DNA of 64,000 nt, taken from Chrysophaeum taylorii (taxonomy: Eukaryota; Sar; Pelagophyceae; Pelagomonadales; Pelagomonadaceae). A model generated the notes under the pieces. It was not told the DNA's origin. It saw nothing but the letters and a program-made list of their open reading frames with translations, and did no database searches. The stretch lies in assembly GCA_029834535.1 (NCBI GenBank), contig JAQMWT010000003.1, positions 62,001 through 126,000 on the forward strand. The letters run 5' to 3'. Positions 5,780-32,392 of this stretch are shown here, in pieces; the first letter of the stretch is position 1; each line of letters starts with the position of its first letter. The position numbers were made by a program, and so were the translations under genes.

Positions 5780-7720
5780 GACATAAAGATGAGGGTAAGA
5801 ATTAATCGTCTTGCTGGACGATGGGTTGTTGTAGACCAAGTAACGTACGAAACGGAGAGAAAAGGGGAGCACCGAAGGGCTTAGTGAATCCGTCGGCAAC
5901 GTTTTGGGTACCAGAAACGTGGTGTAGGCGAATCTGTTTTAGCTGGACATAGTCGCGAACACGAAACCAGCGCGTTCTGATGGCTTTAGCTTTGGTCGCA
6001 CTATCAGGGTTATTTGACAGATGGATGGCAGAAGCCGAATCTCCAAGAATAGGACTGTTGCGAATGAATGATATGGCCGATGGTAGAGGATTGTCATAGG
6101 CATCATAAATCTAGTAACAAGTCCTTTCCTGAAGGTTGGCGAAGATATTATCGGGGATTCATAGCGAAAGCCATTTCCGTCAGCAATTTATGTAACCAAA
6201 CCACGTCAGCAGCTCAAGTATTGAGAGCAATTATTTCACTCTCATGAGTGGACGTGGCTGTTGTGGGCTGTAGCTTGGACTTCCGAGTTACAAGGGAACC
6301 AAATAGGAAAATGGCATAACCAGTTGTACTTTCACGGTCATGTTCATAAGAAGGCGCACTGTCAGCATCCACAAATGCAATCAGTGGATCAAATTTTCCG
6401 GAATCCACTTGTTCATCAGTGTAATCTAGCATGGTTGCCATATCTGAGCGATTACCAACAGTAGTACGCAAGTGCTCCATTAGCGCGGAGGACTGTGAGT
6501 AACACCATAGGCGAAGATTGCGATTTGCTGGCTTACGGAGATAGCGAAACACTCCGGCTAGTATCTGGACGTGCAGGTAGGAAGGACCATGCATTCCACG
6601 GGAACAACGACTTACACTTTGAGAAAGATCTGGTTGGCAGGCTAGCTGTACAAAGTTAATTTACCAAGAAGTGTCGAGAAAGTGTGGAGGATGAACTCGT
6701 CCGTCTCAGTGGACGGCTCTCCAGTTTTATGTACAGTTGAGGGAGACATGGGGGTCGAAGATGGCCGTAATTTTAGCAAGATTGAGCGCTCCTCAAAGAT
6801 GGCATCAAGTTTAGCTCGACAATCCAGTGAAACAGAACCATCGGTAGTGCGCGTTGCTCGTATACCCAAGAGCGTGCAACTTCTTCGAACTCTTCGACGG
6901 AATACTCCTTTTTCATAGCTTGTTGCAACTCGAGACGGAGGACTTATGAAGTGCAAATGACAAAAACATCATCCACGGATAGGGTGCATAACAAGAAAGT
7001 AGCATCATATCGGACTTTCGCATAAATACATGTGTCTGTCCGAAAGCGATGATAGGCTTGCGCGTCAAATAATCCATTTATTGTTTGATTCCAGGGCGCC
7101 GGACTCTGTCGTAGTCCACAAAGCGACTTGAGGAGCTAAGAAGGCGACGTCCTTGGTACTTAGCATCTTTAGGGTCCATTAAGTAAATGCCTTGCGGTAA
7201 CTTAACATAGACGTGAGAGTCGATTGGGGCTTGGACGAACGCGTTGGGCACGTCTATATGATAGACGGGAAGCCGGAGATACGCAGCTAGAGCTAGAACA
7301 CAACGGATGCCGGTGAGCTGCGCCATCGGGCTGAACGTCTCGAAGAAGTCGGTACCGAGGGAAGCGAGAAACCCCCTTAGCACCAACCTTGCCTTGTGCT
7401 TGAGATACTCGCCGGCGGCGTTGGTCTTTATACGTAACACCAGCCGGGTATCAATGGGCTTGGAGTTGGCCATCGGCAGCGATAACTTGAAGCAGCCGAA
7501 CTTAACAATGTCGAAGATCACCTTGGAAATCGCGGAGATATAGGCCTTGCGATCAGCGTCTGAGAGACCTTTTAGGCAGGTCAGCTCATACTCATCGATC
7601 TTGATGTCTTTAGCTTGGATCTTGTATTCATCAGGGCCGACCGTGCTGGGATCTTGATCTTGGGTTAAATAGGTGATCTCGTAAGAATCAGCATCTGAGT
7701 GAGCGGGAGCATGTTCAGGA
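5780..7720 (-). pseudogene. Copia reverse transcriptase and RNase H of element E
   Basis: The RT part shows landmarks known from Copia polymerases: GCFKLSLP, then TRLVLRIKTNAAGEYLKHKARLV split by the usual spacing (around 7380-7480), FSPMAQLTGIR, and the active-site region VYHIDVPNAFVQAPIDSHVYVKLPQG (around 7190-7265). RNase H shows LIAFVDADSAPSYEHDRESTTGYAIFLFGSL and THESEIIAL (around 6215-6400). The tail HVSGTQNVADGFTKPFGAPLF (around 5860-5925) is the typical end of a Copia pol. Function in life: cDNA synthesis and RNA template removal. Fossil. Confidence 0.78.
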
Positions 7721-8689
7721 ACTTCGAATAGTTGAACTACAAGTAGAGGATCAGCATGGAGGTGAGCCTCAATATAGTGAGCCTGCACGTTGATGTAGTC
7801 CTCGATGTCGGAGAGGTGGGGCTCTGGAACTCCATAGGGGGCTTCATTGTGTGCCATTGTGGCATGGGGCGTTAGCAGAGCGTACGCGTATTGAGCGGGA
7901 GGAACTTGAAGTGCCTGGGCGTGTTCATTGATTAAATGAACAAGAGCACGAGGTAAGTGGAAATCCGAGAGGCTAGGGTCATTAAGAAGGTGAACTGGTG
8001 TGGCAGCCGACGGATGGATGTGACTGCCTTGACACACACCAGAAGATGAGCATGAAGAAGATTGCGATAGCGCTTGGTGAACGTGATGATGATGGTGTTC
8101 TTTGTGTAAATTCCCCCTCGGGAGGCATAGCCAGCCAGTGGATGCCATTAGCAGCATGCAGGGAGTGGAGGATGGGGTCGAAGAAAGTGATGTGGTGCTT
8201 GGACAAATCATATTTGAAATCGGCGAGCGTACCACCAGCGTGCTTATAAGCAGCGATCGTCGGCGTGGCAATGCGAGCTTGTGCAGGTTGAAGATTAGTA
8301 GTTTTACGGCGAGGTTGAGGTTGATTAGGACCTCGAGTGAGACGAAGGCCATCTTGTGAAAAGAGCTCACGAAATGTTTGCAAAATAGGTAAAGCAGTTG
8401 GTTTTGGTGCTAACTCAGATGTCGTAGGCGTTGCGACTGGAGCAGCTGGAGCGGGCGCAGAAACTGAAGCTGGGGCTGGTGCTGGAGTAGAGGTAGTCCC
8501 CCTCTCGTGTTCAGTGTCGGGTGACACAGCAATCCCCCTCTGCAGCGCATCACTGGGGATGCCTTGAACAGAAAAGGGTATCTCAGGAGAAGGTGCAGGT
8601 GGTGGGGATTGTTCATAATCGGGAGGAGATTTAGGATTGAGGTATGGGAAGGTAAGTTTAGAAGAGACACGGACTTGGCCCTTCTCGGG

Positions 8690-9659: not shown

Positions 9660-10979
9660 CTACCTGGGAGTTATTAAGGGGATGTGCTTGGATTTAGATG
9701 TAGAGGTTGATGTTTCATCTAAATACGAGATGTTAGACATAAATACACGTGCAACAGAGTCGACATCAAACAAAGGAAATTCGGGATTAGATGACAACTT
9801 GTCACGACATTCGAAAATTTCAGAGAAGATGTACTGCATAGTGAGAAGACTCTGGGTTGTTTGTTGTGAATAGTCTGTTTGGAAAATGTTTGTGAAGAAA
9901 GTTGACGTGTATGTTTTGGTTAGTGATGATTGGTCGGGATCGAAGGATGGCGATAAGGTGTATTTACGCGAATCATGGACGATCTGACACAGGCGTGTAT
10001 TCAATACATGATAGGTGCCAGCTGGAATAGCATTAGCAATCATGTCACAACACAAACCAGGAGATAGAGACAAAAGAAAATTAGTTTGGTGCGCGGTAAA
10101 ATTATTTGCGCGTGCCAATTCTCGTGTTGAGTAGTGTCGAATGCGACCAACTCTTGGATCGTACACCAGGATATTTGCATATCCTCGAATCGTGGGAGTT
10201 AGTGTATATATGGAATGGAATTTAGCGCCCATTGTCCTGTCTCTGGATGTAATGAAGCCAAGGTATCTGCTTTGAGACAAATGCATATCACTTAGAGCAA
10301 AGGATCTGTCGACAAACTCGAGATGGTTGGAGTTCGAATAGAAAATGAGAGAATCTTGAAGTACAGGAGAAGTGTGAGACACAAGAGTCTGCATTAGGCG
10401 GCGTGTGTCTCGCAGTTGTACACCATGGTGATAAGCTTGACACAGCCAAAGGAAACCAGTCGCGGATTCAAGTACAGCCGTTTTATCGACTCCACTCTCA
10501 TGCGATTGCAAAATGTAAGTTTCGCCAAAGGGGTTGATATGTGATTGGTATTTGGAGGAAGGATTGGTGACAGTTATGTCACCACCTGTGTGTTTACCGC
10601 CTGTTATGTAGATGATGGGAGAACTTGAAGATTTATTTATAAATAACCTGTGTGAGGGTTGGTTAGTTTCGAATGTTGTTATGCGAAAAGGCACAGGTAA
10701 AGTGGTTGAGTTAGGGAACAGGCGATCCATAACGTTGTATAGGATGACGAACGCTTTTTGTTCAATGGGCGACATCATATAAGGTAGGGGTCGCTTAGAA
10801 TTCGTTAAGAACCCCAAGCGAAAATGGGCGATGTCGTTTGTACCATATTGAACTGGGTGTTCTGTCGTCTTTCGAGAGTGTAGCCGAAGAAAGAGCATGG
10901 TTAGTGTTTCGAGCTCTGCTACAGTCAGACGAACAGATCCTGTGCGACTAAAGGCGCCGAATCTGTTAGGATTGCACAC
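9660..10979 (-). pseudogene. Jelly-roll (2OG-dioxygenase-like) domain followed by methyltransferase motifs IX/X, element E
   Basis: This is one open frame of 439 codons that enters from the right without a real ATG (its first codon is GTG). Residues 97-200 show NKSSSSPIIYITGGK, HTGGDITV and, 45 residues later, GFLWLCQAYHHGV..TRRLMQTL. This spacing (strand, small-residue turn, GG-D/E-hydrophobic strand, then H-x-V...R) resembles the double-stranded beta-helix core of 2-oxoglutarate/Fe(II) dioxygenases. Residues 278-295 (GRIRHYSTRELARAN) and 312-322 (DMIANAIPAGT) resemble motifs IX and X of C5 methyltransferases (xLTxREAARLQ; QIGNAVPP). So a dioxygenase-like domain sits where the target-recognition region would be. 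The downstream neighbour is the integrase. The methyltransferase call is fairly firm, the dioxygenase call tentative. Confidence 0.55.
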
Positions 10980-10987
10980 CTAAGGAG

Positions 10988-11183
10988 TAGAGATATAAAA
11001 TCTGAATTAGGGTTAGTACCCCCTATTCTAGGGTTAGTTCTCTTAACTTTGCCACCTTTTGATTTAAGAAAACGCTGTGTTATTCACACCGGCTGTCCTC
11101 GATTAGGAGACAGATTCGAGGACAGACTACCACTGTTCTCACGCTCTGCTGAAGGGTAACACAGTTGTGATTACTGTTCTCTA
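10988..11183 (+). repeat. 5' LTR of Copia element 1
   Basis: It begins TAGAGATA and ends TTCTCTA, a 6-bp inverted repeat TAGAGA/TCTCTA in place of TG/CA. It is followed by GGTATTGGGCACCAG and CCGGTATCAGCAGAGCC. The latter resembles the TGGTATCAGAGC primer-binding site complementary to initiator tRNA-Met that many Copia elements use, but it lies about 20 bp downstream of the LTR end. Confidence 0.88.
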
Positions 11184-11269
11184 GGTATTGGGCACCAGTC
11201 CCGGTATCAGCAGAGCCTCAGGATTTCCAGACAAGTCCCGCTCACTGACGTTCCTGAACCCAAGCAAAA

Positions 11270-12528
11270 TGCCAACCAATCAAGAACTCCAAAAGGAGAT
11301 GCGAGAACAAGAAGCTCGCTTAGAACCCAAGTACCAAACAGACATGTAACAACAAGCTCGAGCGTCCGAAGCTCGGCATAAACAAGAGATGCAAGACCAA
11401 GAAGCTCGCTGGATGGCTCAATTCACTGCTCAATTAAGCGCGCTGGCCACCCAAGTGCAAGCAACACAATCACCACCGCCTGCCGTCGCTGCTGCGGCTC
11501 CGCCTCCCACTCCGGCTCAACAAGATCCCAAGAGTAAAGTTAACACCTTTAGTGACCCACCAAGTGCCGTTCTCAAATCCATGGACTCGGCGCGAGTCAC
11601 ACCCCAAATGCTTTCGTTTCGCGTCATGCAATTGCTCGTCGAACATCTGATGCCTGAAACAGGTATAACTCAGTACTTCCTACAGGGCTTCTACGCGTGG
11701 GAATCCGTCCTGCGCGGATCTAATGATCTCGCTGACGCTCTCCTAAGCCACTGTATCGACGAATACGACAAGGACCCCGACCACCACTCTACCGCCGGGA
11801 ACACGCCAGATTTCCAAGGCCGTTACGTCTTCCACAAGGGTGTATACCGCAAGTTCGGCAAGCACTTCCTGGACAACGTCTACGAGCCAAAGCTCCAAGA
11901 ACTCAAAGACAAAGACAAGGACCCGACCGATATGACAAAAGGCAAGTTATATCCGATCACCCAACCTCACCTCCAAGGAAAAGAAGCCGACTTCATCGTA
12001 TATCTCCGCGAGACCGCACACCGCCTCTTTCGCCGTTTCCTACATGCCGGTAGCGACTCCGTCAAGCACCCAGCATACGACGAAATCGATGCACTCGGAT
12101 CCTCCTACCCGATAGAACTCGAATTTGTGCTTCAAGTTCGCCTAGCACTCGACAAGCACACGGGCCAGAGCCACATCAACTATGCGCATTACGTCTACAA
12201 TGCCTTTCTGGACACGCCGTTCAACCCATAAATACAGGAGCCTGGTCACTACATCGACTACATGCGCCATGTCCAGCAGCAACTGCGCCAGATAGCAACC
12301 GACGCTGCTCTCCAACTTCCCGACGACAAGATCCTCGAAGAAATCCACCAAATTCTCCGCTTCAAGTACCCCCAAAGCTTGCTTGACTCCCGCGCCCCAA
12401 CACACATCAAGGGCTTCGCACGTCTTGCTAACTGTCTGCGCACTCCCAACGACTCGCTGTTACTCGACGAAGACAAGGAAGCCACCCACCACCTTCCTAA
12501 GCTCATCGCTCGCATCACCGTCATTTAA
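11270..12528 (+). pseudogene. Gag region of Copia element 1
   Basis: The region starts near the ATG of MPTNQELQKEMREQE and has a Gln/Glu/Ala-rich coiled coil with a Pro/Ala hinge. A mostly helical domain follows (RVMQLLVEHLMPETGITQ, then YAWESVLRGSNDLADALLSH, then RETAHRLFRRFLHAG). No CCHC zinc knuckle is visible. Element 2 holds a close homologue at 32393-33520, which shows that the region is conserved between copies. It presumably formed the particle shell. The gag call rests on position and on the helical, coiled-coil composition. Confidence 0.65.
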
Positions 12529-12588
12529 ACGTTTGAGCGCAACTTTTGGGCTCACCTCGAGCCTCACCCAACTCTCAACTTCAAGCCT

Positions 12589-13830
12589 TTGCGCTTCGTC
12601 ACTGACTTTGGTCGTCTGCCAACAAAGGACAAAGACAACCCCCGTTTTCGCTCCCGCCGTCATGGTCTCCACCTCACCGAAGACGATGATGGCACCTCTC
12701 CCTCTGAAGACGACACCCCACCGGACCCCGTTGAAGACACCGACCCCGTCGCTGTTTTTCTCACGGTGGCCAATCTTGATCAAGATGAAGACAATGACCT
12801 CATTCACCAACTCCACGCCTACCGCAAGAAGCACATTTCGCGGCACCTCAAGAAGCCCCCTCCAAACAAAAAGCCTCCAAATCCTCGCTCCCGTCTTACT
12901 ACGACATCAACGACAGTCCTAAGCCCAAGGCCACCCCTGTCACCCCACCGAAGAACAAGCAACGTCCCCGCGCTCCTCCTTTCACCCCTAACAAACGCGA
13001 GCACCCGCATCTTCGCAAGGTCACCTTCCCCACACAACCTCATCCACCCAAACCATCTACTCCTGACCAACGCTTCAAGGTCCCCCTTCGTGAAGTCCGT
13101 CGCAAGCTCCAAACCATACGGAATCTTAGCCAAGCCGGTCGCCAACATACGTCCAGCTCCGAGCGCATGAACAAGCTAATCAACCTCATCACCACCATCT
13201 CCGACGAGATACTTCTCTCCGAAGCCGAAAACGACGCCGCCGAATTCCTCCAGATGTTAACGTCCGATCCCCAGGACGATCCACCTGATGAGGGCGAAGC
13301 CGAAACCGATGAACAAGACGACGAAGGACACCTCGGTTTCTATGACGACATTCCGCTCGACCTCTATGACGACACCATTCCCGAAATCAATGATGAAGAT
13401 GACTCCGCCGAAGACTACGCACAACGTCACAGCGACTATATGCGCGGTCTCCACCAGAGTCGGCTTTTTCGCTGATGGTTGCCGACGACGCCTGTGCCGC
13501 CAACCACATCTTACTCCATCAGGCACCAAACCTCAAGATGACGAATTTCCCGACCTCATCAACCATCTCACCCAGAGTCGCAGATTTTCTTTGTGCAACT
13601 TACACTCCAGGATAGACCTCAAAGAAGACTAACTCGCTGCACGGATGCAATGGACCCGGCACTGAAACCTCATTGATTGACGGTGGCGCATCCTTTTGCT
13701 TTACGCGCACAATTCAAAACTTTGTTCCTGAGACCATACGCCGAATTCCCGAACACACCATTCATATGGGACGAGGCACCCTCACCAGCCACTTCATCGG
13801 TGTTAAACCGTTGTATTTGCAGGCTGCAGG
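12589..13830 (+). pseudogene. Acidic/Pro-rich region and protease-like motif, Copia element 1
   Basis: 12640-13470 encodes alternating acidic clusters and Pro/Lys/Arg-rich stretches without a known fold. At about 13673 the reading MIDGGASFCFTRTI resembles the retropepsin active site (hydrophobic-D-S/T/G-G-A-S). TIHMGRGTLTSHFIGVKPLYL follows, like the flap and downstream strands of Copia proteases. The motif sits just before the methyltransferase module, which is where element A also has its protease-like part. Confidence 0.5.
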
Positions 13831-14359
13831 TCTCTCTTCAAAGAATACAAAAGACACAACCGGTTACGCTTTATATCTCGTATTTATGGTCGTCCCGCAA
13901 TTCAGGCAAGGTCTTCAAGTTATCGCAGCATCTCACAGCTCAAAGCTCTGCATGTACAAGCAACAGATCCGCCACTGCCCCACGAGCCATACCTTCACGA
14001 ACTTCTAAAGTCCTCAACCTCCGGAAAACCGCACGATTATACAACACTTATAGGAAAGACCGCCGTCGTACTCGCCACTCGCAAACCAAACGGCCTGTTG
14101 TCCCTGCCGTCCCATCCAAAGCAAACATTCGCAACTGTGCTCAGTTTCCACACAAGAAAACGAATGTCACTCAAGGATGAGATTGCACACATCACACAGC
14201 ATGTCGCCAAGACACGCTCAAAATCGCACATGCTTGATTTCGCCAAGTTACAGAATCATTCCCTGTATCTAAACGAACTGCTCAACCTCCAACATACTGT
14301 CGTCCACTACGCCTTCAATGGCACCGCAGACCTCTCTGTGCAAACACAACCCCCTCTGC

Positions 14360-14880
14360 TCAAAACAGCCATTATTGCAGGTGGACTTCACCAGGAAGGT
14401 TTCGACACTTTTCGCAAACGATTCGACAAACGCCTTACTGTCGTGGTCACCTGCGAAATTAACGATATCCTGCGCACCCGTGCGCAACAACTCTTCCCGC
14501 ACGCCCAGCACTATGCGGACCTAAGGAAACTCAATGCCGCACTCCAAACCGGCAAAATACGACTACCTACATTCGACCTGGCAGTTTTTACATTGCCCTG
14601 TCTACATCTGAGTGTAATGAAAGAACACGACGGCTATGCCACTCCGGTCACCGCCGACCTTTTCGTCAAAGCACAAATCCGCTTCTTTCGTTGCACGCTC
14701 CCGACCTACGCCATTGTCGAGAACGTACCTCCCAACCCCCGAACTCACCACGAGTATGCTCAACTCGCCAAAGGCTATCAGCGCTTAGGCTACTTCCGCC
14801 ACTCCGGCGTCTACAATGCCTCTGCTTTTGGTGATGTCATCAGCAAGACACGCTATCTCGCTGTGTATGCCCGACACCCG
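14360..14880 (+). pseudogene. C5 DNA methyltransferase motifs I-VIII, Copia element 1
   Basis: Within one open frame the ordered signatures are AIIAGGLHQEGFDTFRKRF (motif I region, about 14367-14420), LTVVVTCEINDILRTRAQQLF (acidic end of the second strand, about 14431-14490), FDLAVFTLPCLHLS (motif IV, 14572-14613), YAIVENVPPN (motif VI with the E-N-V, 14707-14736) and FGDVISKTRYLAVYAR (motif VIII, 14827-14874). Spacing and order match C5-cytosine methyltransferases, which bind S-adenosylmethionine at motif I and attack cytosine with the motif IV cysteine. The preceding 80 codons are a helical linker from the protease. The module belongs to the retrotransposon polyprotein and is not a host gene. 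Confidence 0.7.
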
Positions 14881-15159
14881 CTCACCGGCTACAACCTCGA
14901 GAAAACCGCCTCTACTTGGTTAACCTCGCCTCCGAGCATGGTTCCTCTCCTGGACCCCAGTCACACCATCCCTGACGATCTCTGGATCGCCAAACCCGCC
15001 CTTCGTGGTACAGTGCCCCGCTCCACCTTGGACTACTACCAGCACAAGGCCACCTACTCCTACAAGCCCGCCAACGCCTCGAAACTCTCGATTTCCGAGA
15101 ATGCCCGCATCTGCCAAATGCTCGCACGCCTCACCAAGCCCTTCACGGATCTCGGTCTA

Positions 15160-15540
15160 GATGCCGACGGCACCCCCTACGCCACAATGGCGTCCATTTC
15201 CCACCTCCTGGTTTTCACATTACTGCACAACCATTTGTCGCAACACCCCACTCTCGCCGCTTGGAACACCATCCGCTGTTTTCATGCCTCAGAGTCTCAA
15301 TGTGCTTACCATTTGGATGGAGCCATCACCGGCACCGCCGCTACTGCCGTCGCATGTGGCTACTTCTCGCGCGCCTCCCTCACACTACATTCCAGGCCCC
15401 CTCAGATTTTGGACTGTTCCCATCAACCCGCAGTCTTCTCCCCAACGCACTCCTTTTCCCTGGATGTTCCCAAGGGCACCGCCTTTCTGGTCGTCGCCTA
15501 CACCACCTCCTTGGCCGCCGCTCACAGCTGCTCGCGCCCG
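15160..15540 (+). pseudogene. Jelly-roll, 2OG-dioxygenase-like domain, Copia element 1
   Basis: The sequence between methyltransferase motifs VIII and IX contains WNTIRCFHASESQCAYHLDG, then AITGTAATAVACGYFSRASL, and about 35 residues later DVPKGTAFLVVAYTT. The H-x-D in YHLDG, followed by two beta-like strands and a hydrophobic strand after PKG, resembles the iron-binding core of 2-oxoglutarate dioxygenases. It aligns by eye with the domain at the same place in element E (9660-10979), where strand two reads IIYITGGKHTGGDITV. The fold assignment is an inference from pattern. Confidence 0.42.
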
Positions 15541-15769
15541 TCCACTTGGGTCCACTATATGAATCGTTCGCATCCTGGCTTTGCCGCGATCGACTCACAA
15601 GGGCGAATTGCTCTCGATGACCCCAAGGGACTCCTAATGTCCAAAGCACGTCCCACTTACGCGGACTATGTCGGCCACATCGGAGACACAATTCAGAAAA
15701 GCACCAAGTGTTACTCGGTCACTGGCTCGTACCCAACCAACACGAGGTACTCGAACGCCTTACTGCTGA

Positions 15770-15925
15770 TCTCTCCAGACCACATCCGCCATGCGACCCT
15801 CAACGAAATCGCAATTTTGGACACCACTCGGACCCGGTACTGCTCCGACTGTTCCAGCAGCACCCGCCGTACTTCGCGTTTAAGGCACTGGCCAACGCCG
15901 TCCCGCACCACATGCGGCAGGCAAA
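15770..15925 (+). pseudogene. Methyltransferase motifs IX/X, Copia element 1
   Basis: DHIRHATLNEIAIL (15778-15819) resembles motif IX (R-x-L-T-x-R-E-x-A). FKALANAVPHHMRQA (about 15878-15922) resembles motif X (GNAVPPxLAxA), the C-terminal helix that packs against the S-adenosylmethionine site. The same pair occurs in element E after the jelly-roll-like domain. The two signatures lie 900-1000 bp after motif VIII, so the methyltransferase is split by an inserted domain. Confidence 0.58.
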
Positions 15926-16269
15926 GTACAGCGCTGTCCTCGCATTCCACGAATCGCACCACCACGTGAACCTTCACCTCGAATGGGCCACGATACGCCA
16001 TGGCATCCCCAGCCCCGGAGACATCAACCAGGTTGCCGAATTCTTCTCGGCCATCTCCAGCCGTCTCTTGTCAGATGAAGACCTGAACCTCACCTCCCTC
16101 TTCAGTGCCGTCGCAGATGCTCACCATGATGCGATCCGCAAACCAGGCAAATCGACAAACCTCGAGACGCTTCTCGCCGAGGCAACCGTCGTTAAATTTC
16201 GAGTCGACAAGCGACCCAGCCCCCCCCCCAGCGCTTCGACTGCTGCTCTGCCTCCCTTGCACAAGCCCG

Positions 16270-17000
16270 GAACCATTCAGCACGCCAAAAGAGTGCTTTT
16301 GGTCACTCGCTGGCACCGCATACATCACCAGCAACTAGAGATTCTTCGCCGCACGATTCCCGCTAATGTAACGAATCTCCGCCCAGGTGATGATCGGTAT
16401 CTGCAAGACTGCAGTGAATGCAAGCGCTGCCAATCGCATGTAAGCTTCAGTCACAAAAACAATTCCTGGTCACAGGATGAACTGGCCCATGCTCCTGGCC
16501 AACACCTCCACATGGATGTATCATACCCGAGCATCAGCAAGTGCTACGGCGGATTTCGCTACATCATGCACTTCGTGTGTATCATCTCAGCACACAAGTG
16601 GGTCTATTTCCTGCGGAAATTAGACGCAGAGGATGTTCAGGCCGGCATCCTCTATGTGGTCAATGTGACTAAAGTCGAATTCGATGTCCATGTGAAGATC
16701 ATATCCTCTGACGCATTCTCAACTTTTCGCTCTGAAGCCTTCCGCCCTCTCAAGGTGCAGCTTGGTCTCCAATTCCAAATCCTTGGTCGCCACCTCCACC
16801 AGCGGAACTTTGCTGAAAACATTATCAAGGAAAACACCCGAGGCACCGTAGTTCGTCTCCTCGACCTTCGCAGTGTACGCATCGAAGGAAAGTCTATTGC
16901 CGCTGAGTATTATCACCCATTTGCTCTCCTGCATAAGATCCAAGCCGACAACCAGCGCTCTCATGGACTGCCCTCGCGCACAAACATGACATGCACCGTT
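16270..17000 (+). pseudogene. Integrase of Copia element 1
   Basis: HRIHHQQLEILRR...CSECKRCQSH (about 16309-16440) is the HHCC zinc-binding domain. PGQHLHMDVSYPS (about 16495-16533) holds the first acidic residue of the DDE core. IISSDAFSTFRSEAF (about 16699-16743) carries the second and RNFAENIIKENTRG (about 16804-16845) the region of the third. Role: insertion of the cDNA, with the observed 5-bp duplication. The domain sits upstream of RT as expected for Copia. Confidence 0.7.
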
Positions 17001-17559
17001 CCCCTGCGTATCATGTCACCCATGGCACCGCTCTTGAAGCTTCTCCCCTTCGGCAAACCTGTCACTTTTGTCTACCCTCAAAGTCACAAACTGGAACCCT
17101 CCAGCGTCTCCGCCTCTTACTTTCATAGTAACAACTATCACCCGAACCTCCCCGGAACGGACCGATTTATCCGAGATGTTCACAGCTCTATCTTGCTTGT
17201 ACATCAAGGGCGATATGGAAAAATCGTCACCTCTAACGACTTTCATGTTGACGCAGACATGCCAGTCAACCGTAACAAGGAGATCGAACGGATCAAAGCA
17301 CTCGCACAGATCCCAACAGAGGCACGACAAGAGGACCCGCTACCAGCTATAAGCGAACAGCAAATGCCGGAAGTTAGACAGGAATCAAAAAATGAGGGCG
17401 AGACTCACGAAGACGAGCACGATGATAAACCTAGCGATGACGACGAACACAAAGAACTGGATCCAACTCCCGCTGCTGATTCAAGTCCCGTCAGCGACGC
17501 GACACCTGAACAGGATTTTTGTTCCTCAACCGGCCACCTCCGCCGGATGGTAGCATTCC

Positions 17560-19440
17560 GATGCCCAAACGAAAAGATCGCCTAGAGGTTGTTCTCGACG
17601 ATTCAGGTTTTACTCCAGTTCTCGTGCATCGCAACCAGAGCGATAAGCTCAAAGCAGATCTCAATGACGAACGTGGATTCCGCATCCCTAAGGATCAACT
17701 CTACATCGTGAAACGTGTTGACGATGGGAAACTCTTCACCAGACGCATTATCGCCTCAGAGTATGGTCGCAACTGGAAATACCAGCAGGAGCAATCCACG
17801 GCTCACGCCACAGCCAACATGTCCAGCACATTGATGTTCCTCATCAGTGTCAGCGCTCTGCACCAGGGCCACGCCGCCAGCATCGCCTCTGCTCTCAACA
17901 TTCGAAGAGATGCTAAGCCGCCTAATGATGTCCCGAAAGGATGTCTCCTAGCAAGTACCACACAAGACGATGGTATCATGGGCGGCACCGCACTGGATTT
18001 GCAGAGAGAAACCGACGCAGAACTCTTGTATGTTGACTTCCCAAGGAAGCCATACCACTCATCTGTATTGGTTGACCACCTTGATAACGACAATTCTGTT
18101 CTCGAGAACTATGTGTGCCACGACGAACTGTCACCGGCAGAGTACTATGCGCGTCAATGGAACCAAGAATTCTGTTGTATGGGTTCCTCTCTTTTGTGGG
18201 ACATCTCCGCGCATCAACACTACCACCTAGCTTCTCGTCACAGGCATGCCTTCATGCATGATTCTGGCGAACTCGGACACCTCTTCCTAAGTCAAAGTGA
18301 TCCGAATCAAGATATTCTACAAGAAGTCATGGACTATGACTTGCAGCACATCGATCATGTCGTGTTGCAGAATGTGACGGCTGAAGATATTGTCTATGAG
18401 CCTGAAAAGATTGTCGAACTCAAAGGACTCAGCGAAGAAGATAAGTTAAAGCACATCGCTTCGATTCGCAAAGAAATTGAAGGATTGTGCCCCAGTGGTG
18501 TCTTCAAGCTTGAACCTTTACCGCCAGACCGTTCGTCTATCTCGACGAAACTCGTGCTGAAGATCACGTATTTTGCTGACGGCACTCCAGACCGCTATAA
18601 AGCTCGTCTAGTCGCCCGAGGTTCTTGGCACGTGTAGGAATTGACTTTTATGCCACGTCCTCCCCAACCGCAATGCTTGCCACCAACCGGCTACTGCTCG
18701 CCATCGCTGTGAAGCACAAGCTCCCGGTCGCGCACGCGGACATTCCTCAGGCATTCATCCAATCGGCACTCGATCGCCCCGTATGGATCGACTTTCCTCG
18801 TGGAATACGTGTCTCGCCAAATCTTATCCAGCAGATACGGAAGAACCACCCAGAGTCAAAGCTCGCTCTCCGACTCGTCAAGGCTCTCTATGGCCTCAAA
18901 CAGTCAGCTTTGTTGTGGAACATCAAACTCGACTCGTTTCTTCGACAACATGAGTTCGAACGCTCACAAGTCGACACTTGCCTCTATATCAATTGGGATC
19001 GATCTATCAACAGACGGGTTCTACTATCCGTTTCAGTCGATGACCTATTGACCACTGGTACCAACACTGCCAAAATTACATCTCTTCGAACTGCTCTGGA
19101 GAAGGAATATGGCAAAGGTACGTGGCATGACAACATCAGTTCCTTTCTTGGCATCGATGTTCACTACAATGTCTCCGCTGGTCATCTCAATATGAATGTA
19201 GCAGAGAAGATCACCAAGATGCTTGCTGAGCATAAGCCCAACCTACATAGCCTAGACGTCCCCTATCCGGACATCCTCTTCCAAAAACCTTCTACTAAAT
19301 TTCTCTCAGACTTGGCTGCTACCTTAGACGTATTACGCCAAAACTTCCCTTTCTACTGTGGCACCAGCATTTACTTCTCTGTCACATGTCGGCCTGACAT
19401 CACCACCTTGTGCAACAAATGCTGCAAGGGGATGCACAAC
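17560..19440 (+). pseudogene. Reverse transcriptase of Copia element 1
   Basis: The Copia landmarks are GVFKLEPLPPD, STKLVLKITYFADGTPDRYK, ARLVARGSW (about 18500-18630) and VAHADIPQAFIQSALDRPVWIDFPRG (about 18727-18805). Next come KALYGLKQSALLWNIKLDSFL (about 18880-18943), DTCLYINWD, VDDLLTTG (YVDD-box position, about 19036-19060) and the conserved FLGIDVHYN. The element 2 copy at 33860-35720 is closely similar. The 900 bp upstream is a family-specific connection region (RRIIASEYGRNWKYQQEQS and following) that is also shared with element 2. Confidence 0.85.
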
Positions 19441-20190
19441 CCCGACCAAAAACACCTTCTGCACTTATATGTTCTACTTCGCTACTTAAAGGGCACTCCG
19501 AATGATTCACTCGACTATTCATCCGACAGCCCCTCTATTCCCCCTTCATTCAGCATCTGATCACCCGCTATCCTGAACTGCATCACCTTCGTTCACCTAT
19601 TATTTGTTTTACTGATGCAGGTTTTGCTGATCGTTCTGACCCTCGCTTACGATCCAAGTCTGGTGCATGTATATTCGTCTTTGGCAATCTCGTATTTTGG
19701 TCTAGCAAACGAAAAACTCTTACTGCGAAAAGCACAATGGAAGCTGAACTCATCGCCGCCAGCGCAGCCGCTGATTAATGTCATTGGTTCTACACGCTTT
19801 TCTCCTCTCATCCTTATCTGTTTTCGTGTGATCAAGCTCACGCTATCCCATTGCTTATTGATAACGCTAGCGCATTACATGTCGCCAATCATCCTAAAGT
19901 CAGTGCTCCTTCTCGTCATATCAATTTACGAGAACTTCGCATTCGTGACTACCAACCTAATTCGATCATTAGACCTCTCTGGTGTCCTACTCTCTACCAG
20001 GTCGCTGATCACTTTTCGAAGCTCCTTCCACGCAACTTATTCCACAAGTTCAAAAACGCCAACGGTGTTCACTCCACCTCATCCTCACCACCATCACATC
20101 AAGTTGCTATTTCGGCTATTCTTCCACCGTACGACGCTGTCCAGAACACTCTATACATTCTTGCCGATGGTAAGACGCTTCCTGCTTAGT
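19440..20190 (+). pseudogene. RNase H of Copia element 1
   Basis: LRYLKGTPNDSLDYSSDSPS marks the start. A cytosine-rich-to-Thr stretch encoding the CFTDA...LRS.SGACIFVFGNLVFWSSKRQTL type motif follows, then STMEAELIAASA, LIDNASALHVANHPKVSAPSRHINLRELRIRD and the tail VADHFSKLLPRNLFHKF. These are the standard Copia RNase H and tail landmarks. It ends about 40 bp before the 3' LTR. Confidence 0.8.
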
Positions 20191-20231
20191 TTGATCCAGA
20201 TTTAGTTCACCGGGTTCAATCTGTGAGGGCG

Positions 20232-20427
20232 TAGAGATAGAAAATCCGAATTAGGGTTAGTACCCCCTATTCTAGGGTTTGTTCTCTTAACTTTGCCACC
20301 TTTTGATTTAAGAAAACGCTGTGTTATTCACCCCGGCTGTCCTCGATTAGGAGACAGATTCGAGGACAGACTACCACTGTTCTCACGCTCTGCTGAAGTG
20401 TAACACAGCTGTGATTACTGTTCTCTA
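20232..20427 (+). repeat. 3' LTR of Copia element 1
   Basis: 196 bp, about 97% identical to the 5' LTR, with the same TAGAGATA...TTCTCTA ends. It is preceded by the sequence TTCAATCTGTGAGGGCG, also found before the 3' LTRs of elements 2 and B (CTGCGAGGGCG), the likely polypurine-tract zone. It is followed by the target duplication AGGAG at 20428-20432. Confidence 0.9.
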
Positions 20428-20432
20428 AGGAG

Positions 20433-20471: not shown

Positions 20472-21414
20472 TCCTTACTACTAATCGACCGATGTTTGTC
20501 TGTCTGTTTGTCTGTTTGTCCCCCGATTTAGGGTAAGGATCATGTAGGCCCGCGAACCAGGCATTGATCCTCCAAGCCGTCTACGGCGACCTCGCAGACT
20601 ATTTCCACGACCCGCGGCGGCTCTTTCAGCGCGCCATTCTCACGCCCCGTCGAAACGATGTTGTCGATGCTGACAACGCGCGCATGACCGCGGCCTTTTT
20701 TTCCCGGAGACGAGGCGTCGGAGTTCTTTTCGGCCGACTAGGTTGGGTCGGAAGACGACGCCTCGCTCTCAAGAGTCGAGTTTTGAACTCCCTGACAACC
20801 AACGGCATGCTGACTTTGATCGCGAGCTTAAAGTCTTCGCAACCTCGACCCGTCGCACGGCCACTGCCACGGTACCATATACATGATCGATCGTGTCGTT
20901 GTCACCGAGGCTCCTCCAACCTGTATCCCTTAAGGCCCGCCGACGCCAAACGACCACCAAGAGCCAGGGCCAGACGCCCCGCGAGGTCGGCGTCCTCTTG
21001 TCCAAGCCCGTCTTCCGCCACGTCCAACTCTTCGTGGCTCCCTGTCGATCGGCAACCCCGAGGATGTCCTCTTCTGGGTCGACGACTCCACCCTACCCCA
21101 CACGTGCTACGCAATACCGATAAGCCCCCTCCCGGCGTCCACACGCGCACTGTAGATGGGCTTACTGGGACCAGGTAAACTTACAGGAACCAGGTGAACT
21201 TACTGGAGCCAGGTGAGCTTACTGGAACCAGGTGAACTTACTGGGGTTAGAGATTGGGACTAGGTGAACTTGGTGACCAGGTGAACTTACTGAGACGAAG
21301 TGTGAGCTTACTGGGGCTTTTAGAGTAAACTCGAAGCTTAGCGGCGTGTGCGGATCAAAGCACCTTAGATTGCCGGGGGTGAGAGCGACGATCTCAAAGG
21401 AGAGTGGGTGTGGG
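20472..21414 (+). mobile_element. Helicase-bearing Helitron-like remnant H1
   Basis: It starts TCCTTACTACTAATCG with a (TGTC/TGTT)n stretch. From about 20564 it encodes LQAVYGDLADYF..PRRLFQRAILTPRRNDVVDADNARM, like the region before motif V of Helitron/Pif1 helicases (ERAILTPxNxxVDxIN). A KSQGQTPREVGVLLSKPVF...LFVA stretch follows (about 20950-21040), the QGQT-type motif V/VI of the same helicases. The ring-shaped SF1 helicase would unwind DNA in rolling-circle transposition. No Rep/HUH domain is seen and the frame shifts at least twice, so this is a dead tail fragment. Confidence 0.68.
21155..21345 (+). repeat. Minisatellite tail of H1
   Basis: An irregular tandem array of the unit GAACTTACTGGGACCAGGT (variants GAGCTTACTGG, GGTTAGAGATTGGGACTAG). 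The same array follows the helicase part in H2, H3 and H4, so it is part of the element. Confidence 0.8.
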
Positions 21415-22495
21415 TCCTAACTACTAATCGACAGATGTTTGTCTGTTTGTCCTTACTACTAATCGACAGATGTTTGTCTGTTTGTCTGTCTGTTTGTTTG
21501 TTTGTTTGTTTGTCCCCCGATTCAGGGTAAGGATCATGTAGGCCCGCGAGCCAGACAGTGATCCTCCAAGCCGTATACGGCGACCTCGCAGACTGTTTCC
21601 ACGACCCGCGGCGGCTCTTTCAGCGCGCCATTCTCACGCCCCGTCGAAACGATGTTGTCGATGCTGACAACGCGCGCATGACCGCGGCCTTTTTTTCCCG
21701 GGGACGAGGCGTCGGAGTTCTTTTCGGCCGACTAGGTTGGGTCGGAAGCCGACGCCTCGCTCTTTACAGTCGAGTTTTCGACTCCCTGACAACCAACGGC
21801 ATGCTGACTTTGATCGCGAGCTTAAAGTCTTCGCAACCTCGACCCGTCGCACGGCCACTGCAACGGTACCAGATACATGATCGATCGTGTCGTGTCACCG
21901 AGGCTCCTCCAACCTGTATCCCTTAAGGCCGCCGACGCCAAACGATCAACAAGAGCCAGGGCGAGACGGCCCGCGAGGTCGGCGTCCTCTTGCCCAAACC
22001 CGTCTTCTGCCACGTCCAGCTCTACGTGGCTCCCTGTCGATCGGCAACCCCGAGGATATAATCATCTGGGTCGACGACTCCACCCTACCCCACACGTGCT
22101 GCGCAATACCGATAAGCCCCCTCCCGGCGTCTACACGCGCACTATAGGTGAACTTACTGAGACCAGGTGAATTTACTGGGGTTAGAGATTGGGATTAGGT
22201 GAATATAGTGGCCAGGTGAACTTACTGGGACCAGATGAACTTACTGGGGGTTTTAGAGTAAACTCAAAGGTTAGCGGCGTGCGCGGATCAAGGCAGCTTA
22301 GATTGGCGGAGGCGAAAGCGACGAGCTCGAAGGAGTGGGGTGTGAGCACGAGTGGGTTTACGCCGAACTTACTGGGGTTAGAGATTTGGACTAGGTGAAC
22401 TTGCTTATTCAAAAAAATTCAAGAAACTTACTGGGACCAGGTGAACTTACTGGGGTTAGAGATTGGGACTAGGCGAACTTACTGGCCTGCACTTG
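21415..22495 (+). mobile_element. Helicase-bearing Helitron-like remnant H2
   Basis: Two copies of TCC(T/A)ACTACTAATCGACAGATG open the element (21415 and 21450). From 21558 it carries the same helicase C-terminal region as H1 (ILTPRRNDVVDADNARM, then a motif V/VI region around 21940-22040 with FWVDDST-like coding near 22060). A minisatellite at 22150-22480 and the end ACTGGCCTGCACTTG follow. The next base is T. It is probably an independent insertion next to H1, or a tandem duplication of it. The frame is disrupted. Confidence 0.68.
22150..22488 (+). repeat. Minisatellite tail of H2
   Basis: Repeats of the GAACTTACTGGGACCAGGT family, interrupted by a conserved 150-bp block (TTAGAGTAAACTCAAAGGTTAGC and onward) that also occurs in H1, H3 and H4. 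Confidence 0.8.
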
Positions 22496-23189
22496 TTTTC
22501 GACTTGTAGCATTGCTGTTATCTGCAATGTAAAGAAAGGAGGTGACCCTTTTATTAGGCCAGGAAGACAGATCTAATGGACCAGAGTTATATATACGAGC
22601 AACAAGGATCCATCTTTCCCGAGATTGAAAATCGCCACATAGGTAGCAAGGAAAGCGATTACATATGACCACCGTGCAATGCATCGTAGAGAAGAGTAGA
22701 TTAGCAACACTGATGTGGTCTTCGTAGGATGCCGCATGCGGTGGTGTCATTTCCATAATGAGGACAAGGGGTTTTATAGCTCAAGCACACTTAACGCGCT
22801 TGGAAATAAAGAAACGTCCATATCTCGCTCGAAAGTCGAGATGGCTTTCCCGTTGATTAGGTTTCGGTTGGTGCACGGGGACGTCAATTCTACAATGTCC
22901 GAGTAGTATTTGGCACGTGCATTATCGGATGCACGGTGCATATACGTCAGGAACTTGGGTAGAGAAGGAAGCACTTCGATAGAGTTGCCAAACCTTCTTC
23001 GAAGCATGTGCGTGAGACTTTCATCGCTCTCAACAATAACTTTGACATTAATGTTAAGACGCAAGTCATCGGTAGCATAGGCCAATAATGCTGGAGTGGA
23101 CAAGCCGGAACAAAGCAGAGTCACCGAAGGTGCACGGGAATTAAGAGTGGATGCTACCGTATGAAGCAGATTTTGATTAAGTCTGCGAG
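22496..23189 (-). pseudogene. C5 DNA methyltransferase motifs I-VIII of element E
   Basis: Minus-strand signatures in order are VTLLCSGLSTPALLAY (motif I, about 23121-23074), INVKVIVESDE (second strand, about 23052-23020), MLRRRFGN, YYSDIVELTSPC (motif IV, about 22908-22873) and LCGDFQSRERWILVA (motif VIII, about 22642-22598). The Q-S-R-E-R of motif VIII is close to the family consensus. This is a third methyltransferase lineage in the window, different in sequence from those of A and 1. The motif IX/X part and jelly-roll-like domain of the same element lie at 9660-10979, past two nested insertions. Broken. Confidence 0.66.
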
Positions 23190-23244
23190 TGTGAGACCAA
23201 GGAGGGGGGGGGGTCCTAACCCTAAATGGAATTTTCCATCTCTA
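23190..23244 (-). repeat. 3' LTR remnant of element B
   Basis: On the minus strand it reads TAGAGATGGAAAAT with a C-tract and GGTCTCACAC, matching the start of the 5' LTR at 31624. It is preceded by CTGCGAGGGCG, the same purine-rich site that precedes the 3' LTRs of elements 1 and 2. Only its first 55 bp or so are recognisable. Confidence 0.7.
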
Positions 23245-23764: not shown

Positions 23765-24752
23765 TCAATCATAAGTGACTGGGGGATCATCGTAGTAGAA
23801 CGGGTGGGCTAATTGATAACAACAGTAGGGATCATGGGTCAGGCAGTCGGGGATTGTGCAGCAGACCAATGATTGATCAAAAGGCGAATAGTGAGTGTGG
23901 CCGTAGGAATGAGATTCTATTGTGACTAAAGTTGGGCTAGTAAAGGTGTGACGATGTGACTGAGCGACAGCGCTATCCCATGAAGATATATGACCATTTA
24001 ACCAAATCGGTTTCGACATGGTAAGGTAATCGTCGTAATGATAGCGAGTAAGGCGGAGCTGTTCCTGGAAGATGAGAGAACCAGAATTGCCTGTCACATA
24101 CGTGTCGAAGCTGTCGTCCGGAGTATAGCGTGGGACAGCTGAAGCTAGGCTATGAGCGTCTAAAATAATATGCGGCTAATCGTAGCGCGATGAGGATATT
24201 GGGATAAAGTTGTCTGGGGGTGGCCATAAGTCTGGTGGAAGTCGCAAGTGGCTATCATCGAAAGATGATGGGGCTGGGACTGAGGTTTGCGAGTGCATCG
24301 CGTATGATGGTGGATACAGGCGTGTGTCCTGTGCTGAAGAGTCAGTGCCCTGTGCAGAAGATGCCGAAGAGTTGGGCAACAGAAGAAAATGCCTGAAGGT
24401 GATGGACTGTTCGAAGATATTGTCCGTGCCAGGGAGAGTTGACTTCGAAGGTATGGTCAAAGTCGCATCTTTCGTGTTCTGTTCGGCAAAGTAATCCTGA
24501 ACTGTGACAATCGACTGATCCGGTATTCATTTCATGTTCGGAGTCGTTTTCACCAGAATCAAATTGTAAGTAGCTGTTGAGCAGCTGTGGAGAGCTGAGT
24601 GCGTTGTTGTCTGGCGGTTTCAGTGGCTTTGGAGTTCCAGAGACATGATTGCGCCGCTTCAGACGTCTTGGCATTGGGGATTGCCATACAGTGACTCGCA
24701 AGTTCAAAGTCGGACGTCGGAAAATGCATCGATAGACCTGTGAGGTCACCAA
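23765..24752 (-). pseudogene. 3' coding remnants of element B
   Basis: Short minus-strand frames (about 24342-24752 and 23765-24097) with Tyr/His-rich peptides and no recognised domain. The next 500 bp end in FVPDFAHHRVQSARA next to the purine-rich site. This resembles the FDPDLVHRVQSVRA reading at the same place in element 1, so the 3' end of B is homologous to that of the Copia elements. Confidence 0.35.
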
Positions 24753-26064
24753 TTGAAATGCGCCTTCGTAAGGCGTGCGCGACGTGGTGCGGGCGCGAGC
24801 GACTTATGTTGGTGATCTGAAGGTCGTGAGATATGTGGCGGCGCAGAGCGTCGGTGGGAATGACGAGTGTCGCGGTGTTAAAGGCGGTGACGCGGAGAGC
24901 ATCGAAAAGCGTGTCATGCTCCAAGAGCAAAAGCGCGTGATGCGGGTGGTCCGAAGTCTGTGCCAAAAAGGGTGTGGCTCGGGGCTGACCTGTCTGCAAG
25001 GTAGGGCAGATGGGCGCGTGAGCTGAGATCCCGTGGTGGGGAGTATCCGGCCTGGAATGCTTGGGGTCCAGTGCGGGAAATCGAAAGGGGGGATCGCCGA
25101 AGGAGAGTGCAGTAGTACCAAGGGCGATGAAAGGGTCAGTCCTGCTGGGTGCATCCTCAATAGCGGAGATGCGGGGGCCAGAGCAGTGAGTGCCGTTGTG
25201 ACCAGGGTTGCCCATAGGCGTGTAGGGCATTCGGAGGTGCGGGCATGTGACATGCGTCCTCGAAAGAGGAGTTACGTGCCGAGCGATAAGACGCTCTTGA
25301 GGGAGGCAACGTGCGTGACTTTGGTGCATGTTTGCGGTGGAGCCGGCAGCTGGCGTGGAACGTTTGTCGTACATTCCAGTGATCCGAAAGTGCTGACAGA
25401 AGCGGTTCAGGTGGAGCGAGTATGTGCATTGTGCACGGAGAATGTCGCCTGAGAGCGCAACATCGATTTTCCGGAAGCAGCGCACGCGTGTGGCGTCCAT
25501 AAGGGAGCTATGCAAGGGGACATAAAGGACCGAAGTGGTCGCAATAGAATCGTGCATAGTTTGCGGCTGATCGGGCCGTTCAGAACTCTCGAAATCTGTG
25601 TCTATTACTGCGGCCATGGTGAAGGCTTTCCAGAAGCTTGGTCGCGGTGAGACATAAGGATCGGCAGCCGAAAGGATTGCGTCCTCTGACTGAAAGTTGG
25701 GGAGCGGGTGATCATGTGCTGCGACTGTTGCTCGCGCGATGATATCCATCGAATCGTGACATGGTGATCGCAGATGGGTCCATGCAACCTGCTGAGCAGT
25801 GTCATCCAGTGCATCCGGCCGAGAAGATGGATGGTGGGTGCAGCAGGAAGCGCCGGTGAGCGTCAGTGCGCGCCAGTCTTCGGGGAGAGAAGGCGGCGAG
25901 GCGGAACCAGCGTCGAAGTGATCGGAAGGTGCTGATCGAGAGATATCGAACAAGGCGGGAGTGCTTGGTGAATCTGAGCTGATATCTGCGGGTGCGGTGA
26001 GTGCCTGCGAGTATGTTGACCGTGGGACCGTTGACAGCGTGTCTTGTCCTTGTGGATACGGCAT
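24559..26064 (-). pseudogene. Unidentified 501-codon ORF of element B
   Basis: A long uninterrupted minus-strand frame, rich in His, Pro, Ser and Arg, with a cluster of possible metal ligands (HVTCPHLRMPYTPMGNPGHNGTHC near residues 265-297). I do not recognise a domain. It lies between the gag-like part and the 3' end, where an autonomous element would carry integrase and RT. Either it is a cargo or novel ORF, or the frame is open by composition (GC-rich, few stops). The first explanation is favoured slightly because the frame spans 1.5 kb. Confidence 0.3.
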
Positions 26065-26312
26065 TGCGCATTGATGGTGCTTGGATCAGGCGGCTGATCT
26101 GGAATGGTCGAGGAGACCATCTTCGAGGCTAGTGAAGTGGGTCTTGCTTCTTCGCTGTATGCATCATTCCAGGGGGCTGAATCCGAGGGGATGTTGTCAG
26201 TGGCCTGCGGCTCTTGTGCCTGGGGCATAGAAAACGGCGGAGCTTTGGGTCCTTGAGTGTGGTTGCCATAGTCGGCATAATACTCGGGAACATCTCGAGG
26301 TGTCTTGTTCTT

Positions 26313-28849: not shown

Positions 28850-29270
28850 TGTTTGTCTTTAAATGTCGACTGCTAAGTTTGTCTTTAAATGTCGATTGCT
28901 AAGAGGGGGGTGTGTGTGGGGGGCATGAAGGATGTGGGTGGGTTTGTGGGGTAGGAGGGATGTGCCTGACGGGCGGAGTTTGTCTTTAAATGTCGACTGC
29001 TAAGAGGGGGGTGTGTGGGGGGCATGAAGGATGTGGGTGGGTTGGCGGAGTTTGTCTTTAAATGTCGACTGCTAAGAGGGGGGTGTGTGTGGGGGGCATG
29101 AAGGATGTGGGTGGGTGTGTGGGGTAGGAGGGTTGTGCCTGACGGGCGGAGATAAGTACGCGGGACCTAGTCGGGGTCATCGCCGAGTCGTGGGGCAGGC
29201 GAAGAGATGACGGGCCCCGCCCGTAGGTCGTACGCATGCTGTCGCCGGACGTATGTGCGACGAAGGGGGT
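28850..29270 (+). repeat. Tandem array and partial ORF copy, right of the nuclease-like ORF
   Basis: Four more copies of the TTTAAATGTCGACTGCTAAG unit (about 28857, 28884, 28984 and 29054) with a period near 100 bp where complete. From about 29145 the sequence repeats the 3' end of the nuclease-like ORF (encoding the HAYDLRAGP...APRLGDDPD end) almost exactly. The element therefore grew by duplication of its own tail. Confidence 0.75.
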
Positions 29271-29321
29271 TTGTCCCTCGATTCAGGGCAAGGATCAGGT
29301 AGGCCCGCGAACCAGGCATTG

Positions 29322-30240
29322 ATCCTCCAAGCCGTCTACGGCGACCTCGCAGACTTTTTCCACGACCCGCGGCGGCTCTTTCAGCGCGCCATTCTCACGC
29401 CCCGTCGAAACTATGTTGTCGATGCTGACAACGCGCGCATGACCGCGGCCTTTTTTTCCCGGAAACGAGGCGTCGGAGTTCTTTTCGGCTGACTAGGCTG
29501 GGTCGGAAGACGACGCCTCGCTCTTTACAGTAGAGTTTTCAACTCCCTGACAACCAACGGCATGCTGACTTTGAGCGCGAGCTTAAGGTCTTCGCAACCT
29601 CGACCCCGTCGCACGGCCACTGCAACGGTACCAGATACATGATCGATCGTGTCGTTGTCACCGAGGCTCCTCCAACCTGTATCCCTTAAGGCCCGCCTAC
29701 GCCAAACGATCAACAAGAGCCAGGGCCAGACGCCCCGCGAGGTCGGCGTCCTCTTGTCCAAGCCCGTCTTCCGCCACGTCCAACTCTTCGTGGCTCCCTG
29801 TCGATCGGCAACCCCGAGGATATCCTCTTCTGGGTCGACGACTCCACCCTACCCCACACGTGCTACGCAATACCGATAAGCCCCCTCCCGGCGTCTACAC
29901 GCGCACTGTAGATGGGCTTACTGGGACCAGGTGAATTTACTGGGGTTGGAGATTGGGATTAGGTGAATATAGTGACCAGGCGAACTTACTGGGACCAGGT
30001 GAACTTACTGGGGGTTTTAGAGTAAACTCAAAGGTTAGCGGCGTGTGCGGATCAAAGCAGCTTAGATTGGCGGAGGCGAGAGCGATGAGCTCGAAGGAGT
30101 AGGTGTGAGCACGAGTGGGTTTACGCCGAACTTACTGGGGTTAGGGATTTGGACTAGGTGAACTTACTGACCAGGTGAACTTACTGGGACCAGGTGAACT
30201 TACTGGGGTTAGTGATTGGGACTAGGTGAACTTACTGGCC
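29322..30240 (+). pseudogene. Helitron-type helicase C-terminus and minisatellite tail of H3
   Basis: LQAVYGDLADFFHDPRRLFQRAILTPRRNYVVDADNARM precedes a broken middle, then RQTINKSQGQTPREVGVLL (about 29699-29755), KPVFRHVQLFVA and FWVDDSTLPHTCYA in shifting frames. NKSQGQT and the following hydrophobic/HxQLxVA pattern are diagnostic of Pif1/Helitron helicases (motif V-VI). The tail 29910-30240 holds the GAACTTACTGGGACCAGGT array. The same segment is present in H1, H2 and H4 at high identity, which suggests recent spread. Confidence 0.68.
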
Positions 30241-30304
30241 TGCACTTGTAGATGTTAAAGTGGGAGTAGCTGATAGTGGGGAGTTAGGCTCCAGTGAAGG
30301 AGGT

Positions 30305-31437: not shown

Positions 31438-31624
31438 AAGAGAACAGTAAAAATCACTGTGCCTCTGGTAGAGAATGGTGGCAGTGGTAGTGCTGCCTTT
31501 CGTTCTGTCCTCTTACGACACAAAGAGCAGCACGGTGTTCGACACAGCGACTTGTGGGTGTTAAGGTGTGGGTGTGAGACTAAGGGGGGGGGGTCCTAAC
31601 CCTAAATGGGATTTTCCATCTCTA
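31438..31624 (-). repeat. 5' LTR of element B
   Basis: About 187 bp, minus strand, starting TAGAGATGGAAAAT and ending near ACTGTTCTCT. GGTTTGGACCCAGTCCGG follows, parallel to GGTATTGGGCACCAGTCCCGG after the LTRs of elements 1 and 2. It contains a C-tract of nine or more. Confidence 0.7.
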
Positions 31625-32112: not shown

Positions 32113-32307
32113 TAGAGATAGAAAATCGGAATTAGGGTTAGTACCCCCTTTTCTAGGGTTAGTTCACTTAACTTTGCCACCTTTGATTTAAGAAAACGCT
32201 GTGTTATTCACACCGGCTGTCCTCGATTAAGAGACAGATTCGAGGACAGACTACCACTGTTCTCACGCTCTGTTTAAGGGTAACACAGTTCTGATTACTG
32301 TTCTCTA
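32113..32307 (+). repeat. 5' LTR of Copia element 2
   Basis: 195 bp, TAGAGATAG...TTCTCTA, about 93-95% identical to the element 1 LTRs. GGTATTGGGCACCAGTCCCG follows. Confidence 0.88.
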
Positions 32308-32392
32308 GGTATTGGGCACCAGTCCCGGTATCAGCAGAGCCACAGGATTTCCAGACAAGTCAAGCTCACTGATGTTCCTGAACCCAAACAAA

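Follow-up and report, generated by a model that had tools for sequence, protein, structure and literature searches.

Organization of the locus

The window analyzed here is a stretch of 64,000 nucleotides of Chrysophaeum taylorii DNA (contig JAQMWT010000003.1, positions 62,001 to 126,000 of the forward strand), and the genome searched along with it comprises 70.8 Mb in 697 contigs. The window harbors copies of two Copia-type retrotransposons, element 1 and element E, each with a predicted C5-cytosine DNA methyltransferase (MTase) that carries a long extra region between motifs VIII and IX. The features concerned are as follows (positions of the window):

10988..20427, plus strand: element 1, Copia-type long terminal repeat (LTR) retrotransposon, recognized by its LTRs, target duplication and RVT_2 domain
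10988-11183 and 20232-20427: LTRs of element 1, 196 bp each, with TAGAGA...TCTCTA ends
10983-10987 and 20428-20432: target duplication AGGAG of element 1
14098..15969, plus strand: MTase frame of element 1, motifs I to IX-like (Pfam DNA_methylase, E 1.9e-6)
14866..15660, plus strand: extra region of element 1, from motif VIII to a stretch resembling the core of a target-recognition domain (TRD-core-like stretch, TYADYVGHIG from 15655), collinear with E
15307..15501, plus strand: part of element 1 aligned to the TET/JBP-like core (hhalign E 0.019, probability 2.5%), with the peptides YHLDG (15307-15321), SPTHSF (15439-15456) and GTAFLVVAY (15475-15501)
15708-17585, plus strand: frame in which element 1 continues with motif X
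22472..23241, minus strand: N-terminal part of the E MTase, motifs I-VIII, in two frames (22777-23241 and 22472-22780)
9663..10979, minus strand: C-terminal part of the E MTase, a 439-residue frame with extra region, TRD-core-like stretch, IX-like and X-like motifs
10272..10979, minus strand: part of the E extra region on the C-terminal side of the insertion (median pair dN/dS 0.090; hhalign E 0.024, probability 2.0%)
20493..22430, no strand given: repeat block (families D1-D3, D7, D9, D16) lying, together with element 1, between the halves of the E MTase

Element 1 is a Ty1/Copia LTR retrotransposon by its RVT_2 domain (18625-19560, Pfam E 1.3e-30), its target duplication and its LTRs, which are 96.5% alike over a 200-bp match (97% in another comparison); the rve-like integrase match upstream of RVT_2 is sub-threshold (22.7 bits, cut-off 32.6). 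The assignment of E to Copia is based on RVT_2 at 7078-8370 (Pfam E 9.5e-20). Both window copies are broken. The frame of element 1 changes between the IX-like IRHATLNEI (15784-15810) and the X-like LANAVPHHM (15888-15914). The MTase of E is in two halves because element 1 and the repeat block lie between them. Its motifs I, IV, VI and VIII were located at 23118-22610, and motifs I-VIII are situated at 22472-23241, outside the interval 9660..15925 of an earlier note on this DNA; that note had recognized both ends of the E MTase, but its interval omits the first half. The IX-like (10116-10145) and X-like (10023-10040) motifs of E are both in the 439-residue frame. In a profile search of window open reading frames (ORFs), the E MTase profile A1 matches the two N-terminal frames with E 2.4e-73 and 7.6e-56 and the C-terminal frame with E 1.7e-223 at profile positions 248-684.

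Element 2 (32108-36735) has the same LTRs and reverse transcriptase (RT) as element 1, with the MTase-bearing stretch gone, and is an internally deleted derivative of the latter. Repeated blocks of about 1 kb are found at 20493-22430, 29211-30264 and 40201-41227; their ends are short units such as AGGTGAACTTACTGGG.

Methyltransferase motifs and families

Element 1 matches PF00145 (DNA_methylase) with 28 bits at a cut-off of 22, and motifs I (14368), IV (LPC, 14590), VI (ENV, 14716) and VIII (14839) are found in its frame; this match and the motifs identify the predicted protein as a C5-cytosine MTase. The motif names and numbers (I to X of C5 MTases) were assigned by eye from the patterns usual in such enzymes. 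The Pfam match is present in 6 of 10 rows of family 1, to which element 1 belongs, with TLPCQ and VENV each kept in 8 rows, and RYLAV and A(N/S)AVP in all 10. Among the nine rows of E and of E', PC and NAIP are kept in 8 each, and EMTP instead of ENV is present in all of them. The Arg of motif VIII and NA(V/I)P are retained in most rows. The E protein can be considered a C5-cytosine MTase only indirectly, by sub-threshold Pfam matches and by its alignment to family 1. The single relative of profile A1 in the protein database, MMETSP protein P0001, matches Pfam DNA_methylase with E 4.4e-4 (20.2 bits at the cut-off of 22). No match was found in that database for the L027 polyprotein region 230-900 or for profile A2, viral contigs hold no relative of profiles A1 or A2, and PHROGs gave no match for A6.

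The number of match rows in the genome is at least 83 for family 1 (71 scored candidates), at least 98 for E (96) and at least 73 for E' (70); as lower bounds, these counts correspond to about 70 or more places per family. E' is a third MTase family, 41-45% identical to the E MTase and with a similar extra region. In one E' copy (L021:1279-3174) the frame lies immediately before an E pol frame, with one TGA between. The last 110 residues of this frame match what precedes pol in other E copies, so that the copy may be a recombinant.

The earlier note also described an element A in the window, with an MTase whose gap between motifs VIII and IX was about 70 codons. No further MTase was found there by the genome search with PF00145 (123 of 474 candidates scored, element 1 being the sole match in the window), by the E and element 1 profiles on window ORFs of at least 40 residues, or by Pfam on 25 window ORFs. 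Two other matches of the E and element 1 profiles lie at 31605-32045 (E 2.7e-8), which resembles the region upstream of E's pol, and at 24562-26085 (E 1.9e-4), where the alignment has no MTase motifs.

The extra region is shared and constrained

Counted from start to start, motifs VIII and IX are 314 residues apart in family 1 (copy L027) and 339 apart in E (copy L017). The long region reported by the earlier note is present in both elements, and its length of 250-300 codons was stated too short. The peptides quoted there were also found (GGKHTGG at 10581-10601 and TGFLWL at 10443-10460 in E, YHLDG in element 1). On the reference copies, inspection by eye places a TRD-core-like stretch beyond the extra region in each family, RYLGFI...TPTIRG (residues 485-513) in E and DYVGHI...YPTNT (537-563) in family 1, 40-41 residues ahead of motif IX. 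With this stretch set between it and motif IX, the extra region amounts to about 290 residues in E and about 270 in family 1.

E and family 1 can be aligned over 490 columns (probability 64%, P 6.4e-5, score 46.5), in the same order from the catalytic part through the extra region to the C-terminus. The extra regions alone align with a score of 22.4, which none of 150 shuffles reaches. Judging from these alignments, the extra regions were probably inherited from a common ancestor.

The extra region recurs in other copies of the genome, where its dN/dS (ratio of nonsynonymous to synonymous substitution rates) is low. In family 1 the ratio of means is 0.162 for the extra region vs 0.158 for the catalytic part, and the medians are 0.224 vs 0.171; six of 10 copies were used, L031, L033, L034 and L036 being excluded for stretches seemingly out of frame. 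In E the pair medians are 0.090 vs 0.063 for 8 of 9 rows, E' being excluded. The dS means are undefined in two cases for E and in one for family 1, and saturation left one E mean undefined. Purifying selection acts on the extra region, which is about as constrained as the catalytic part. Since it is collinear in two families and under such selection, the sequences identify it as a real domain common to both Copia families, and the proposal of an additional conserved domain within the MTase, homologous in E and element 1, is borne out.

Possible likeness to the TET/JBP fold

The earlier note compared the extra region with 2-oxoglutarate (2OG)/Fe(II) dioxygenases of the TET/JBP type. The genome contains host genes of this kind, with 10 match rows for the query L041 and 9 for the query L049 in overlapping sets. 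L041 matches Pfam Tet_JBP with E 0.0015, and the cut-out domain with 1.9e-4 (one of 7 members), both under the cut-off; the best PDB match of the host TET/JBP-like profile is the Naegleria Tet-like dioxygenase (5cg8, E 0.0083). The Tet_JBP search of the genome itself gave one weak match, to a gene outside E and element 1.

Against the host profile, hhalign gives E 0.024 (probability 2.0%) for the E family, E 0.019 (2.5%) for family 1 and E 0.011 (3.9%) for the joint profile of both; an earlier run with fewer rows gave E 0.0016 (16%) and E 0.058 (0.9%) for the E family and family 1, respectively. These weak scores are reached by 1 of 150 column shuffles in each family and by none of 26 decoy windows taken from elsewhere in the elements and the TET-like proteins. 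The decoy control is soft, because most decoy windows are less diverse than the template. The register is consistent as well: all 33 shared template columns fit the alignment of E to family 1 within 4 residues, and just one of 100 shuffles shows any agreement (6 columns).

Other searches do not recover this likeness. In hmmsearch on 1678 ORFs the element profiles do not raise TET-like proteins above decoys among the best 60 listed, nor does the TET-like profile raise element sequences above decoys among its best 60, where the element fragments L053 (2.1 bits) and L052 (1.1 bits) come 31st and 60th. The element profiles gave no significant TET/JBP match, and no oxygenase was matched in PDB or Pfam. 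The leptin PDB matches of profile A1 (E 0.065 and 0.42) were taken as chance. AlphaFold2 models of the extra domain have predicted local distance difference test values of 33.1 (one sequence) and 38.4 (two sequences), too low to read the fold. The likeness put forward in the earlier note thus survives as a weak profile signal and finds no counterpart in these other searches. A double-stranded beta-helix fold for this domain is a tentative proposal, which we regard as less likely than not.

On the TET-like register, where the alignment is weak and the counts depend on it, family 1 rows with a residue have the iron-ligand His in 10 of 13 cases, and the Asp and the distal His in 12 each. Gln replaces His in 3 of 13 rows, and Gln or Asn is found in distant copies. 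The place of the 2OG-binding Arg is taken by Ala in 13/13 rows. In E none of 14 rows has the Asp of HxD, 13 of them carrying Leu instead, and the Arg place is occupied by Phe, Tyr or Ser in 13/13. Neither family thus shows the full set of HxD...H and 2OG-binding Arg on this register, and the Arg is missing in all 26 rows of both families together. As the iron ligands are incompletely kept and the Arg is absent from every row, the extra domain is unlikely to be a working dioxygenase.

Possible role of the extra domain

The explanation we favor, with a probability of about 0.58, is that both elements encode an MTase with a shared, constrained and noncatalytic accessory domain that would help to bind or choose DNA, perhaps a decayed TET/JBP-type beta-helix. 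It proceeds from the MTase homology and motifs, the Copia context, and a domain that is collinear in two families and under purifying selection. As reported for retrotransposon DNA methyltransferases (DNMTs) elsewhere, the MTase in pol would most likely methylate cytosines of the element or of the target DNA, and the extra domain would be an added recognition module that helps the enzyme to bind or choose its DNA, e.g. element cDNA. Several points weigh against this explanation. The samples for dN/dS are small and some dS values are saturated; Pfam DNA_methylase is matched by only one of 9 E rows, with E 0.26; and the C-terminal MTase pieces matched nothing relevant, with no MTase in Pfam, so that the labels of the TRD-core, IX-like and X-like motifs rest on inspection by eye.

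It is possible, if somewhat doubtful, that an ancestral Copia element acquired a TET/JBP-type double-stranded beta-helix within its MTase, and that selection has maintained this domain as a pseudo-oxygenase for reading or positioning DNA. If true, the retrotransposons would encode a DNA methyltransferase fused to the fold of an enzyme that oxidises 5-methylcytosine. About as doubtful is the view that the extra region is just an oversized target-recognition domain, or that an unrelated fold was inserted there, with its TET/JBP likeness due to chance. The hhalign probabilities of just 0.7-4% (16% in one E run), the negative hmmsearch and the lack of oxygenases among the PDB and Pfam matches of the element profiles agree with this, as does the single-frame host MTase L038, whose stretch between motifs VIII and IX is also long (roughly 185 residues by eye). 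However, the score beats 149/150 shuffles in both families and all decoy windows, the register agrees throughout, and in both families a TRD-core-like stretch, judged by eye, lies beyond the extra region.

A structural or assembly role unrelated to target choice, in which the domain would bind Gag, RT or RNA, would suit the constraint and the position in pol beside integrase and RT equally well, but the domain sits inside the MTase and adjoins the TRD-core-like stretch in both families, and we regard this role as improbable. Most improbable is an active Fe(II)/2OG oxygenase, by which one polypeptide would write and then oxidise 5-methylcytosine as in the write-and-modify device of the earlier note: the iron ligands largely kept in family 1 and the Naegleria match of the host profile speak for it, and the loss of the Arg in both families, the Leu in place of Asp in E and the Gln and Asn of distant family 1 copies, all on a weak alignment, speak against it.

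Comparison with known systems

To our knowledge, DNA methyltransferases carried by retrotransposons are known from few lineages. The small algal genome studied here has three MTase-bearing families at about 70 or more places each, and in E and family 1 a constrained domain common to both lies inside the enzyme.

SymbioLINE-Dnmt, SymbioDIRS-Dnmt3 and KnitGypsy-Dnmt3 are retrotransposons encoding DNMTs, for which de novo CG methylation was reported (PMC5890265), and DNMT3 was found in LTR Copia and DIRS elements (PMC12344493). E and family 1 resemble them in that the retrotransposon, present in many copies, has a C5 MTase within its coding region, with key motifs retained and under purifying selection; this likeness is at the level of C5 MTases and does not place E or element 1 in DNMT3 or another class. 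In contrast to those elements, the present ones are Copia families of another host whose MTase contains an extra domain of about 270-290 residues, and no such domain is mentioned in the available text of the two reports. TET/JBP dioxygenases are carried by fungal DNA transposons, and no retrotransposon with a TET/JBP gene was found, as far as the available text of PMC12730594 goes. The common trait would be a mobile element with a TET/JBP fold; the fungal transposons have a separate dioxygenase gene (PMC12730594, same text), whereas here there is at most a degenerate domain within the MTase. With L041, its relatives and 5cg8 the element domains share a weak profile likeness in a consistent register, and they differ from these in lacking the Arg, in E also the Asp, and a direct PDB match. 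In the available text of the open-licence literature, including PMC9998398 and PMC12477816, no retrotransposon MTase with an inserted TET/JBP-like domain is reported. DNMT-bearing retrotransposons, Copia included, are thus known, and the inserted domain is the part for which that literature yielded no published counterpart.

Other methyltransferase and TET/JBP-like genes of the genome

L037 and L038 are two other MTase genes, one of 360 residues with a PF00145 match nearly end to end and the other in a frame of 2086 residues. The L037 locus is overlapped by a frame for a chlorophyll a/b-binding protein (PF00504, E 1.2e-13). The host TET/JBP-like genes L041-L051, on contigs C548, C5, C66, C200, C398 and C479, are diverse: a methyl-CpG binding domain is matched close to the cut-off in one and a Tudor domain close to the cut-off in another, and two have an ILEI domain.

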